A DNA stretch of 64,000 bases from Yeosuana aromativorans (GTDB taxonomy: Bacteria > Bacteroidota > Bacteroidia > Flavobacteriales > Flavobacteriaceae): assembly GCF_014646655.1 (NCBI RefSeq), contig NZ_BMNR01000002.1, positions 275,942-339,941 on the forward strand, read 5' to 3'. The notes beneath the pieces were generated by a model that saw only the letters and a list, made by a program, of their open reading frames with translations, made no database searches and was not told the DNA's origin. This document shows, piece after piece, positions 4,979-11,855 of this stretch (within the stretch, counting starts at the first letter, position 1; every line of letters starts with the position of its first letter). The position numbers were made by a program, and so were the translations under genes.

Positions 4979-7120
4979 TTGAACAGATTAAAATCTACAT
5001 ACATTTTATTTCTTCTTTTTGTCTTATCTACATGCAATATGCTAGCACAAGAACAAAAAAAAATAGATATTGAATATTCTGGTTTTTTGAATTTTGATGA
5101 AGCCAATTATCCGGGTGCGAAAATCTTAACGCGAGACGATTCGCAACAAATCCATATTATCCATGAAAGCATCAATGTATGGTGTGACAAAGCCTACTAC
5201 TATGGCAACGAGAATTTCATTGAAGCTTACGGCCATGTAAAAATGATACAGGGAGATACCATTAATATGAGTTCAAAATATGTTGAATATAGTGGCAAAA
5301 CCCAATTGGCATTTGCTAGTGGCGATGTGGTGTTGACCGACCCAACTTCAACAATTAAAACAGATACCTTATACTTCGACCGTGTTAAGCAACAAGCCTT
5401 TTACAGAGATGGCGGTACCGTTGTAAAAGATACCTCTGGAACCATTACCAGTAAGATTGGTCGGTATTACATGAACGAAAAAAAATACCAATTTGTAACT
5501 GATGTGGTTTTGGTAAATCCTGATGCGACCATCAAATCTAATTTTTTCGACTTTTATTCAGAAACCGGTCAGGCTTATTTGTATGGCCCCTCAACCATCA
5601 CAACAGACGAAAGTACGACCTATTGTGAAAAAGGGTATTATGACACCAAGGCCAAGATTGGCTATGCCATGAAACACGCTAAAATAAACTATGATAACAG
5701 AATTATTGAAGGGGACAGTTTATATTTTGATAACAACAAAAGTTTTGCATCGGCAACCAATCATATAAAAGTAACGGATACCTTAAATCACAGTATTGTG
5801 AAAGGTCATTATGCTGAGGTTTATAAAGCAAAGGATTCAGTTTTCATAACAAAACGCGCATTGGCAATCACTGTACAAGAAAACGATTCCATTTATATGC
5901 ATGCTGACACTTTGATGGTTACGGGAAAGCCAGAAAATCGCATTACCAGAGCCTTTAGAAATGTACGCCTTTATAAATCTGATATGAGCGGCAAAGCGGA
6001 TTCTGTTCATGTAGACCACGCCAAAGGGCTTACCCAACTTATCAATATCTCAAAGTTATCAAGTACCGATGCCTTTGCTACCAAAAGACGGCCTATTTTG
6101 TGGAACATTGGCAATCAAATGACAGGTGATACCATCTATTTGATTTCCAATCCTGAAACCGAAAAACTGGATTCCCTCATCGTATTCAAAAATGCTTTTT
6201 TAATAAGCAAAGACACGCTTGGCGCTGGTTTCAACCAAATTTCAGGACAACGGTTAGTGGGATTATTTAATGAAGACAATGACTTAGAAACGGTTGATAT
6301 TATTAAAAATGCCGAATCTATTTATTATTTCAGAAATGATAAAAACGAATTGGTTGGTATAGACAAAGCCAAGTCTGGAACCATTAAGATTTTTTTGGAG
6401 AACAAAGAAATTGAGGAGGTTAGAAAAATCAATCAAATTGACGGTAAAATTTATCCCGAATCTGATTTTCCCGAAAAAGAGAAAATACTAAAAGGATTTG
6501 ACTGGCGCGAAGAAGAGCGTTTGACCAGTATAGAGGATTTATTTAAAGACGACCCTCCCTTGGTCTTACCCAAAATAAAAGGTTTGGATGATTATGTGCC
6601 GCAAGAGGACTTTTTTGATGATGCTATGATGGAACGCATTAAAGAGGCTGGTAAAAATGATACTATTAATAGAGCGGCAAGAAATATCCCTAAAAAAGAA
6701 CCTAAACTTACTAATTTATTAAAATCAAATACAGATTTTTTATCATCTGATTGGTTTAAAAAAGATGTTATAGTTAGTTCTAACTCGTCAATATCATTTG
6801 ACAAAACTAAAACAGCCAATGAATTATCAGGCGTGGCTTCAAAAAATGGTTATCTATTGCAAAAGGTTGCAAAAACACAAGGAAATTTTAAATTTTCAAT
6901 ATGGCTAAAAGGCAAAGGGCTCATTAGGATTGCATTACAAGAAGCCAGTAATGATTATACAAATTATGCCATAAAAGATATTAAACTAACTAAGGAATGG
7001 ACTAGATATGAGATAAATTGTATAAAGGAAAATGACGGAAACAATTTAAGAGCTGTATTAAGTGATATTCATTCATCAGATTTTGTTAAAGCTTGGGGTC
7101 CTGAATTAATAGAATTATAA
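4979..7120 (+). CDS. OstA/LptA-like LPS-transport protein with a C-terminal lectin-like extension
   Basis: An exported protein of 713 residues with a signal peptide at 1-23 (ending NMLAQ). The start is TTG; there is no nearer ATG before the signal sequence. Residues about 35-330 contain repeating beta-rich segments of the OstA/LptA type (for example AYGHVKMIQGDTINMSSKYVEY and GDVVLTDPTSTIKTDTLYFD cores), the fold that shields lipid A crossing the periplasm. Residues about 330-560 are the usual Bacteroidota extension, ending in an acidic EEDFFDDAM-like stretch. From about 575 to the end there is an extra domain beginning NLLKSNTDF and ending KAWGPELIEL. It resembles the jelly-roll carbohydrate-binding tails of phage and hydrolase proteins, and its DNA looks more AT-rich than the rest. 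A class III aminotransferase starts 10 bp downstream. Confidence 0.8.
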   Translation: MNRLKSTYILFLLFVLSTCNMLAQEQKKIDIEYSGFLNFDEANYPGAKILTRDDSQQIHIIHESINVWCDKAYYYGNENFIEAYGHVKMIQGDTINMSSKYVEYSGKTQLAFASGDVVLTDPTSTIKTDTLYFDRVKQQAFYRDGGTVVKDTSGTITSKIGRYYMNEKKYQFVTDVVLVNPDATIKSNFFDFYSETGQAYLYGPSTITTDESTTYCEKGYYDTKAKIGYAMKHAKINYDNRIIEGDSLYFDNNKSFASATNHIKVTDTLNHSIVKGHYAEVYKAKDSVFITKRALAITVQENDSIYMHADTLMVTGKPENRITRAFRNVRLYKSDMSGKADSVHVDHAKGLTQLINISKLSSTDAFATKRRPILWNIGNQMTGDTIYLISNPETEKLDSLIVFKNAFLISKDTLGAGFNQISGQRLVGLFNEDNDLETVDIIKNAESIYYFRNDKNELVGIDKAKSGTIKIFLENKEIEEVRKINQIDGKIYPESDFPEKEKILKGFDWREEERLTSIEDLFKDDPPLVLPKIKGLDDYVPQEDFFDDAMMERIKEAGKNDTINRAARNIPKKEPKLTNLLKSNTDFLSSDWFKKDVIVSSNSSISFDKTKTANELSGVASKNGYLLQKVAKTQGNFKFSIWLKGKGLIRIALQEASNDYTNYAIKDIKLTKEWTRYEINCIKENDGNNLRAVLSDIHSSDFVKAWGPELIEL

Positions 7121-7130
7121 AAAAGAATAC

Positions 7131-8315
7131 GTGAACCAAGATTTCTTTAAATATCAAGCACAAACCACTCCACATCCGTTGGCAATGGAAGTTTCCCATG
7201 CCAACGGATCGTATATTTATGATTCAAACAAAAAAGCTTATCTAGATTTTGTGGCTGGCGTTTCGGCATGCACACTAGGTCACAGCCACCCAAAAGTCAT
7301 CCAAACTATTAAAGAGCAATTGGATAAGTACATGCACGTAATGGTTTATGGTGAGTACATTCAAAAACCAGCGGTTGAACTTACCAAACTATTAGCTAAA
7401 AATCTTCCCTACCCTTTAGAGAAAACCTATTTGACGAATTCAGGGACAGAAGCTATCGAAGGTGCTTTAAAACTGGCTAAACGAGCAACGGGCAGAAGCG
7501 AAATCATCGCGGCTAACAAAGCCTACCATGGCAACACGATGGGATCCATGAGTGTCATGGGCTATGAAGAACGCAAGCAAGCTTTTAGACCTTTAATTCC
7601 TGATGTTCGATTTATAACCTTTAATGATGAAGCAGATTTATCATTGATAACCACAAAAACAGCCTGCGTTATTTTAGAGACCATACAAGGTGGTGCGGGT
7701 TTTATTGAACCAAAAAACGGCTACTTAAAAAAAGTTCGTGAACGTTGTAATGCTGTCGGGGCTCTATTGATTTTAGATGAAATACAACCAGGAGTAGGTC
7801 GAACAGGAAGACTGTTTGGTTTTGAGCATTATGATTGTATCCCTGATATTTTGGTGACCGGCAAAGGTCTAGGTGGCGGTATGCCCATAGGTGCATTTAC
7901 AGCTTCTGGTGAATTAATGGATTTGCTTCAAGACAATCCTAAGTTAGGACACATCACGACCTTTGGTGGGCACCCTGTTATTGCCGCATCGGCATTAGCT
8001 ACTTTACACGAAGTTATTGAGAGTGATTTAATGCCTCAAGCGTTGGAAAAAGAGCAGCTTTTTAGAAAGCTTTTAGTTCATCCGTTAATTACCGAAATAC
8101 GCGGAAAAGGCCTTATGCTGGCTATTATGTTGCCCTCAAAAGACATTGTAGATACGGTTGTTCTTAAATGCCAAGAGCAAGGTTTGATCCTTTTTTGGCT
8201 GTTATTTGAGCCAAAAGCAGTCAGAATAACGCCGCCTTTAACCATTTCAAAAGAAGAAATCATAAAAGGCTGTACTATAATTATAGATATTTTGAATAGT
8301 ATTCACATAAAATAG
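7131..8315 (+). CDS. Class III PLP-dependent aminotransferase (aspartate/ornithine aminotransferase-like)
   Basis: A fold-type I, class III aminotransferase using pyridoxal phosphate; substrate not determinable from sequence. The 394-residue protein has the expected order: substrate-entry segment VAGVSACTLGHSHP, PLP phosphate-binding NSGTEAIEGALK (103-114), the AYHGNTMGSMSVMG segment (131-144), LDEIQPGVGRTG with the PLP-ring Asp216 and Gln219, and the Schiff-base lysine K245 in LVTGKGLGGGMPIGAF. The start is GTG at 7131; homologues normally begin close to the FFKYQAQTTPHPL segment, supporting it. The 10-bp gap to the OstA-like gene suggests cotranscription. Confidence 0.9.
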   Translation: MNQDFFKYQAQTTPHPLAMEVSHANGSYIYDSNKKAYLDFVAGVSACTLGHSHPKVIQTIKEQLDKYMHVMVYGEYIQKPAVELTKLLAKNLPYPLEKTYLTNSGTEAIEGALKLAKRATGRSEIIAANKAYHGNTMGSMSVMGYEERKQAFRPLIPDVRFITFNDEADLSLITTKTACVILETIQGGAGFIEPKNGYLKKVRERCNAVGALLILDEIQPGVGRTGRLFGFEHYDCIPDILVTGKGLGGGMPIGAFTASGELMDLLQDNPKLGHITTFGGHPVIAASALATLHEVIESDLMPQALEKEQLFRKLLVHPLITEIRGKGLMLAIMLPSKDIVDTVVLKCQEQGLILFWLLFEPKAVRITPPLTISKEEIIKGCTIIIDILNSIHIK

Positions 8316-9915: not shown

Positions 9916-10836
9916 ATGCAAAGACGTTTTATAGAGTATGTGGTAATTTCACTAAAAGGAATCGCTATGGGAGCAGCCGATGCCGTTCCTGGTGTTTCGG
10001 GCGGTACCATTGCATTTATTTCCGGTATTTACGAAGAATTAATCAACACCATTAGCAATGTCAATGTTGGTCTATTTAAAACACTTTTCAACAAAGGTTT
10101 CAAAGCCTTTTGGAATGAGTTAAACGGTAATTTTATTCTAGCACTTTTAAGTGGTATTATAGTCAGCTACGTGTCTTTTATGCGGCTTGCCAAATACTTG
10201 TTGGAAAACCACCCCGTTTTGATTTGGTCCTTCTTTTTTGGTTTGATTATCGCTAGTATCTATTTTGTTGGCAAACAAATCACTAAATGGAATGTCATTA
10301 CCTGTTTAGGTTTATTTCTTGGCGCAGTAATAGCATATTATATTTCAACGTTATCATCAATGGCCAATAATGACAATGACTTATTTCTGTTTTTTGCTGG
10401 TGCTTTGGCCATCTGTGCCATGATTTTACCTGGTATTTCCGGGTCTTTTATTTTGGTCATTTTAGGGGCTTACAAAACATTAAGTGATGCGCTGCATGAT
10501 TTTGATTTGAAGAAAATTGCCGTATTTGCCTGTGGAGCCATTATCGGACTATTAAGTTTTAGCCATTTATTGAAATGGTTGTTTAAACACTATCACAACC
10601 TTACATTGGCCATTCTCACCGGTTTTATATTTGGTTCATTGAACAAAGTATGGCCTTGGAAAGAAACACTCACTTGGCATATCAACTCAAAAGGTATTGA
10701 AGAACCCTTGCTAGAAAAAAGCATATCTCCATTTTCGTATGCTGGAGACAATCATTTAGTATTTGCAACTGTCCTGATGATTATTGGCTTTTTTACTATT
10801 TTTATTCTTGAAAGATTAGGTTCAAAAAAAGATTAA
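9916..10836 (+). CDS. DUF368 membrane protein, likely undecaprenyl-phosphate translocase (first copy)
   Basis: A 306-residue polytopic inner-membrane protein with eight or so hydrophobic segments. It shows the two internally repeated family signatures, AVPGVSGGTIAFISGIYEEL near the N-terminus and ILPGISGSFILVILGAY near residue 172. DUF368 proteins (PopT) were shown in other bacteria to recycle C55-P (undecaprenyl phosphate) across the membrane, alongside DedA-family UptA; that role is transferred here by family, not proved. The stop overlaps the ATG of a second DUF368 gene by one base (TAATG), so the two are translationally coupled and may act as a pair or specialise. Confidence 0.9.
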   Translation: MQRRFIEYVVISLKGIAMGAADAVPGVSGGTIAFISGIYEELINTISNVNVGLFKTLFNKGFKAFWNELNGNFILALLSGIIVSYVSFMRLAKYLLENHPVLIWSFFFGLIIASIYFVGKQITKWNVITCLGLFLGAVIAYYISTLSSMANNDNDLFLFFAGALAICAMILPGISGSFILVILGAYKTLSDALHDFDLKKIAVFACGAIIGLLSFSHLLKWLFKHYHNLTLAILTGFIFGSLNKVWPWKETLTWHINSKGIEEPLLEKSISPFSYAGDNHLVFATVLMIIGFFTIFILERLGSKKD

Positions 10837-11855
10837 TGGAAAGTACCCGAACTCTTAGCGATAAAATATTCCTAATCCTTAAAGGTTTAGGAATGGGTGC
10901 TGCCAATAAGGTTCCTGGTATTTCTGGCGGCGTGGTTGCTTTTGTTGCCGGTTTTTATGAAGAGTTTATTTATTCCTTACGAAAAATCAATGCCAAAGCC
11001 TTTAAATTGCTCATTAATGGGAGATTTAAAAGCTTTTACAAATATGTTAACGGACGTTTTTTGGGTCTTTTGTTCTTTGGAATGATTGTCAGTTATTTTA
11101 GTATTTCCAAGGCGCTGGATTATCTTATAAAATACTACGAATTGTATGTTTGGAGCGTTTTCTTTGGAATGATTATCGGCTCCATATACTACATCAACAA
11201 AGATTTTAAGGATTGGAATTATAAAACCTATCTGTCACTGTTTATCGGCATTGTATTGGGCATGAGTGTAAGCTTTTTAAGCCCTGCAAAAGAAAATGAC
11301 AACTTATGGTTTGTATTTTTCTGTGGCATCATCAGTGTTTCCGGTATGACACTTCCAGGCTTTTCCGGATCCTTTATTCTTATTCTACTGGGAAATTATG
11401 TGTTGCTTTTGGTAGAATCGGTCAATGCACTATTTGATACGTTTTTTGATATTTTTGAATGGGATTTTAGCTTTATACACAATTTTGAACGCATCCGCAT
11501 GCTTAAAGTCCTGCTAGTATTTACATTGGGCTCATTAACAGGATTAATCACATTTTCCCACTTGTTGAGTTATATTCTAAAGCATTATAAAAGCATAACC
11601 ATTTCAACAATTATCGGTTTCATTATTGGGTCACTGGGTGTAGTATGGCCATGGAAAAAAACCATTTACAAACTCAATGAAACTGGTCAGTTTATATTTG
11701 ACTCCCGAGGTGAAAAAGTGATTGCTAACTACAAACGCTATATTCCTGAATTAGGTTCAGAAACGTATTACGCCATTGCATTTATTGTATTAGGCATTGC
11801 CATTGTACTGGCACTTGAAATATACGGTCAAAAAACAAGAAAATCACATGCATAA
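10836..11855 (+). CDS. DUF368 membrane protein, likely undecaprenyl-phosphate translocase (second copy)
   Basis: A 339-residue paralogue of the preceding gene with the same two signatures, KVPGISGGVVAFVAGFYEE near the N-terminus and LPGFSGSFILILLGNY in the middle, and multiple transmembrane helices. Compared with the first copy it has an extra segment of about 30 residues after the second motif (VESVNALFDTFFDIFEWDF region) and a longer loop before the last helix. It shares one base with the first copy and overlaps aroE by 8 bp (ATGCATAA), so the three form a coupled operon. Whether both paralogues translocate C55-P or one has another lipid substrate cannot be told from sequence. Confidence 0.9.
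   Translation: MESTRTLSDKIFLILKGLGMGAANKVPGISGGVVAFVAGFYEEFIYSLRKINAKAFKLLINGRFKSFYKYVNGRFLGLLFFGMIVSYFSISKALDYLIKYYELYVWSVFFGMIIGSIYYINKDFKDWNYKTYLSLFIGIVLGMSVSFLSPAKENDNLWFVFFCGIISVSGMTLPGFSGSFILILLGNYVLLLVESVNALFDTFFDIFEWDFSFIHNFERIRMLKVLLVFTLGSLTGLITFSHLLSYILKHYKSITISTIIGFIIGSLGVVWPWKKTIYKLNETGQFIFDSRGEKVIANYKRYIPELGSETYYAIAFIVLGIAIVLALEIYGQKTRKSHA

Follow-up and report, generated by a model that had tools for sequence, protein, structure and literature searches.

In this study, we find that the 3' end of an OstA/LptA-like gene of Yeosuana aromativorans, a member of the Flavobacteriaceae, has in all probability been exchanged repeatedly: sequence comparisons argue strongly that the C-terminal tail of the encoded protein is gained, lost or replaced on a core that is inherited vertically. 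The gene lies in a 64,000-nucleotide stretch of DNA, referred to here as the window. The 713-aa protein begins with a signal-peptide-like N-terminus, as read from the ORF translation, and continues with an OstA core, a linker and the putatively exchangeable tail. The conserved core runs to about residue 535 and stops at the linker, inside which the exchange junction lies. Coordinates of these features, and of related ones in other genomes, are collected in Table 1. Further along the window, at 9916-11855, lies an apparent tandem duplicate pair: two neighbouring multi-pass membrane proteins of 306 and 339 aa that look alike.

Table 1. Positions of the OstA/LptA-like gene, its parts and its neighbour in the window, and of proteins in other loci that carry related modules
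Feature	Location	Strand	Basis or remark
OstA/LptA-like gene, 713 aa	4979..7120	+	ORF, TTG start; PF13100, PF03968
OstA_2 domain, residues 27-187	5057..5539	+	Pfam
Variable linker, residues ~536-572	6584..6694	+	C-termini of relatives; DNA identity profiles
Type I tail, CBM-like jelly-roll (predicted), NF048003, residues 573-713	6695..7117	+	Profiles, fold, GC
argD-like aminotransferase gene, directly downstream	7131..8315	+	ORF; relatives' gene order
Y. aromativorans Wzy_C protein with NF048003 insert	L145:12338-14047; contig C6, about 98.3-100.0 kb		Polysaccharide cluster
Wzy_C-like proteins with the same insert	L123, L124, L106		
Type II OstA tails, two genera	L113:494-1021, L114:337-864	-	~170 aa
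G100 743-aa secreted protein with type II module, SGNH-like by eye	L133:8601-10832	-	
Lipoprotein with NF048003 domain	L105:1237-2394	-	

A preliminary description of this DNA, made from the sequence alone, had named the protein OstA/LptA-like, and Pfam agrees. Both PF13100 (OstA_2; E 7e-35, 120.4 bits against a cut-off of 21.2) and PF03968 (LptD_N/LptA, residues 99-224; E 1.7e-6, 28.7 bits against a cut-off of 20.4) exceed their thresholds. The NCBIfam LptA equivalog TIGR03002 reaches 27.0 bits, below its cut-off of 71.7; comparison of the OstA core with solved structures by sequence gave no match, and the full-length AlphaFold model of the protein is poor (pLDDT 40). From its family, we infer that the protein would carry LPS across the periplasm, as LptA does. 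E. coli LptA is a short protein without additional domains, whereas the OstA-like protein here ends in the C-terminal tail.

We surveyed the distribution of the tail across the family. The OstA core is present in 390 of 397 sampled genomes, and in 19 of the 397 it bears the same kind of tail as in Y. aromativorans (type I), every time in the same place. Beyond this sample, tail-bearing genes come from G005, which belongs to the window's own genus, from two more species of genus g192 and from Algibacter amylolyticus; the match in Flaviramulus basaltis is genome G078. The list of the 155 closest OstA frames contains 21 that exceed 700 aa, comprising 19 with the type I tail and two, in G100 and G339, with a type II tail of ~170 aa that is unrelated to type I and has no match in Pfam or NCBIfam. 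In other families of the order, the search for tails returned just two members of the family that were already known, along with a phage-like protein of G672 (L132). Most relatives lack the segment, as an acquired domain would lead one to expect: tail-less OstA proteins are ~560-620 aa long and finish with a Lys/Pro-rich stretch within the linker region, and in nearly all of these cases an argD-like gene follows immediately 3'. Because the majority of relatives do without it, LPS transport does not generally require the tail. A split gene, in which tail-less species would encode the tail in a gene of its own further downstream, was rejected since the argD-like gene directly adjoins. Candidate decayed tails in G002, G004 and G035, seen as matches with stops, turned out to be alignment spill into the linker or the next gene.

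The preliminary description suspected one recent fusion, and the AT-richness on which this leaned is real. Specifically, the GC content of the tail (6707-7117) is 0.285, compared with 0.363 in the rest of the gene, and of 1184 same-length windows taken within long ORFs across the 64 kb, just 0.08% are equally AT-rich. Had Y. aromativorans acquired a lectin domain in one recent event, this would account for the low GC and for the four congeners without a tail (G002, G003, G004 and G006), but the OstA-plus-tail architecture spans at least 12 genera and the tail of the congener G005 is of normal composition, so that we regard such an acquisition as very unlikely; one fusion event is ruled out by the wide, patchy distribution, and the module is repeatedly gained, lost or replaced. 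On the core tree, G005 clusters with the tail-less G002, and the tail state changes at least nine times. AT-richness marks recent arrival only in part, because the tail is GC-poorer than the core in 18 of the 21 tail-bearing genes and the G005 tail is normal. The Y. aromativorans copy itself may have arrived recently through exchange.

Comparisons of core and tail within genera reveal separate histories. Among four species of g192, the cores are 89-96.5% identical and the tails 29-38%. One genus even holds unrelated tail types: the cores of g135a and g135b are 92% identical, with a type I tail on one and a type II tail on the other, and g91 shares the type II tail with g135b, tail DNA identity (78%) there exceeding core DNA identity (73%). 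The DNA of g192a and g192b is 86-96% identical up to the core end, ~50% over the tail and ~90% downstream, with identity returning at about codons 7-10 of the argD-like gene, at its conserved YQAQT motif (about 7149-7166 in the window). Five further within-genus pairs, including Y. aromativorans and G005, give identity profiles of the same shape. In AU tests on the tail tree, clades are rejected for g192 (p 9e-5), g178 (9e-9) and g232 (1e-9), all three of which are strongly supported as clades on the core tree; those of the window's own genus (p 0.058), g153 (0.075) and g172 (0.33) are not rejected. As a control across pairs, two parts of the core correlate with rho 0.75, compared with 0.14 for core and tail.

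These data bear on whether the tail could simply evolve very fast by vertical descent, without any exchange. Tail divergence is indeed fast everywhere, and the tails of g104 and g150 look vertical, being closest within their own genus. Against this stand the unrelated tail types within one genus, the AU rejections, the sharp DNA junctions, and the finding that tails are 61% identical across genera (g192a and g232a, cores 74%) but 32% inside one genus in which the cores reach 96.5% identity. Vertical inheritance as the whole story is thus contradicted for g192, g178, g232 and g135; single lineages could still fit it, and as a general account we give it hardly any credence. Exchange on a vertically inherited core may also reach past the gene. 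The first 140 residues encoded by the downstream gene (window 7131-7550) correlate with tail identity (rho 0.34-0.41, falling to about 0 further on) and with the OstA core at rho 0.11-0.33 (0.23 as control; noisy). Since they track the tail above the core, there are hints that exchange tracts could extend into the argD-like gene.

We examined the family and fold of the tail. The motifs FKFSIWLKGKG and, at the C-terminus, WGPELIEL are present as originally reported, while the opening NLLKSN begins at residue 579 rather than 575. The resemblance to jelly-roll carbohydrate-binding domains read from these motifs goes beyond chance: against NF048003, the NCBIfam phage head-spike fiber domain, the isolated tail reaches 37.0 bits (cut-off 36) and the full-length protein 35.4 bits, slightly under the cut-off, and 20 of the 21 aligned tails match (E <= 0.001). 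Using a profile built from the 21 tails (A2), we retrieved from the PDB the gene-transfer-agent head spike of Rhodobacter (6tb9, E 1.9e-5), from the spike fiber that gives NF048003 its name, GTA_spike_fiber, and CBM4 1gui (E 0.007). By profile, the tail belongs to that domain family, whose known members are phage and gene-transfer-agent spikes; here, the domain ends a protein of an LPS-transport family or sits inside Wzy_C proteins. Pfam CBM_4_9 (PF02018) weakly matches 11 of the 21 tails (best E 5e-5) and gives the Y. aromativorans tail 15.1 bits, below its gathering cut-off of 25.9.

AlphaFold2 modelled the tail as an all-beta domain from an eight-sequence alignment (pLDDT 89, pTM 0.85), with the beta-sandwich of jelly-roll CBMs. 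The nearest solved structure is a porphyran-binding CBM (8xmz; Z 16.2, rmsd 2.0 over 130 aa), and further matches include CBM4-2 (Z 15.4), CBM16 (15.1), CBM61 (14.6) and the phage tailspike K2-2 (15.1); among viral predicted structures, the model matches phage tail proteins and CenC-like domains. The CBMs (2y6j, 2zew, 2xon and 8xmz) have the jelly-roll fold in common with the predicted tail but only 10-22% sequence identity, and they ride on secreted hydrolases. In the tail alignment, W20, W70, G73, G75, W102 and W134 (alignment numbering) are invariant or nearly so, hydrophobic positions alternate along the strands, and the majority of the remaining positions are variable. Every tail is an intact open frame in which the structural residues are kept. 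Judging from the predicted fold, the tail probably binds a glycan; elsewhere, jelly-roll CBM-like domains have protein-binding or structural roles too.

Relatives of both tail modules occur in surface-polysaccharide clusters. Searched at E up to 10, the Y. aromativorans genome gives a single match to the tail profile besides the OstA tail, namely an insert (E 0.007) within a Wzy_C protein of 570 aa, which argues against a silent store of tail cassettes. This O-antigen ligase-like protein (PF04932, E 1.6e-17; NF048003 45.4 bits, over the cut-off) is surrounded by rmlBACD, gmd, fcl, Wzx, glycosyltransferases, ugd and uxs (most names by eye). A search for it in G005 did not find it, and G003 has only a distant match outside the insert. 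The domain also occurs in Wzy_C-like proteins of G119 (98 bits) and G355 (83 bits), and in that of G198. Profile comparison of the tails gives a weak result with the Y. aromativorans insert by itself (hhalign E 0.008, probability 5%), with a four-member insert alignment it reaches a probability of 97%, and NF048003 independently catches both the OstA tail and the Wzy_C insert. The only other homologue of the type II tail in the 397 genomes is found in G100 itself (41% identity, E 2e-29), in a 743-aa protein that has no Pfam or NCBIfam match and lies in a cluster with Wzx, Wzy, pyruvyl transferase, GT2, gmd and rmlA. The two unrelated modules therefore both have relatives in such clusters, and together the five genomes concerned (Y. 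aromativorans, G119, G355, G198 and G100) are suggestive of a link between the tails and surface polysaccharide. The link is not exclusive, because NF048003-like domains are also found in unrelated settings, namely the phage spike L107 and the lipoproteins L105 and L108, of which L108 has a weaker match to the tail profile. The genes for these lipoproteins adjoin an LD-carboxypeptidase-like gene, in two genera.

Could the end of the gene merely tolerate functionless foreign domains that are moved about by illegitimate recombination? The patchy presence of the tails would fit such a neutral cassette, as would the disordered-looking, Lys/Pro-rich ends of most OstA proteins, but the uniformly intact frames with conserved structural residues, and the ties of two unrelated modules to surface-polysaccharide clusters, speak against it, and we consider it improbable. 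Our best explanation, offered tentatively, is that glycan-reading modules are exchanged at the 3' end of the ostA/lptA-like gene and that the tail reads LPS polysaccharide. On the comparisons above, the OstA core passes vertically, whereas the tail of ~140 aa, a jelly-roll like those of phage head spikes and CBMs, is either absent or replaced as a block through recombination between the core end and the start of the next gene. Family membership would place the tail in the periplasm, on the LPS bridge; the cluster link and the diversification suggest that it could bind the strain-specific polysaccharide portion of LPS there, and it may take part in sorting, retaining or licensing LPS that bears O-polysaccharide on its way to export. 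Contact with LPS sugars, which the preliminary description had suggested, is plausible and is indirectly supported by the relatives of the tails in O-antigen clusters. A change of surface polysaccharide would demand a change of tail as well, and the NF048003 inserts in O-antigen ligase-like proteins might read the same kind of polymer at ligation or polymerisation. That the tail is replaced and nearly nothing else in the gene suggests a match to a fast-changing part of the cell surface.

The glycan might instead be something other than LPS, with the tail serving as a periplasmic anchor or scaffold on peptidoglycan, exopolysaccharide or passing capsule and being exchanged as that glycan varies. 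The CBM-like fold is compatible with this, and the clusters with related domains could make capsule or exopolysaccharide rather than O antigen; peptidoglycan, however, is too invariable to account for exchange, and the host protein comes from an LPS-transport family. We regard such an anchor as unlikely. Less likely again is an arms race over the LPS machinery with phages, lectin-like bacteriocins or contact toxins, in which the tail would act as a decoy or shield, with glycan reading in a secondary role. The strong diversification of one module, from a domain family typical of phage spikes, would suit it, but phage receptors cannot reach a periplasmic protein, no resistance or phage gene adjoins the OstA gene, and the majority of relatives lack the module.

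Extending the proposal that the tail reads LPS polysaccharide, the exchangeable strain-specific reader on the LPS bridge and the readers in ligases or polymerases could form a matched set, such that export is selective for the type of O-polysaccharide and tail exchange follows exchange of O-antigen clusters. We consider this larger scheme rather doubtful. The closest known parallel is found in Wzt, where capped O antigen cannot be exported without a C-terminal jelly-roll CBD that recognises the cap (PMC9445017). The Wzt CBD of E. coli O8/O9a and A. aeolicus is likewise a C-terminal jelly-roll on a conserved LPS/O-antigen transport protein, and its substrate recognition decides which polymer gets exported (PMC9445017); by analogy, we propose that the OstA tail might play a corresponding part. 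Wzt does its work before ligation and on the cytoplasmic side, whereas the predicted site of the OstA tail is the periplasm, on another transport machine, and the OstA protein lacks the ABC-transporter NBD of the Wzt architecture, its host domain being OstA. Domain and host family are both already known, and it is their combination and exchange that appear to be new; in the open-access literature, we found no paper describing a CBD attached to an LptA-like protein or lying in the periplasmic portion of an O-antigen ligase.

LptA-type bridge proteins are regarded as conserved conduits for the lipid A end of LPS, indifferent to its variable sugars. A swappable domain of sugar-binding type as the sole variable part of the bridge protein suggests that, in some bacteria, sugars may be checked during transport. 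Surface-polysaccharide switching and the transport machine would thereby be linked in a testable way, and the natural tail variants on near-identical cores provide a ready-made set.
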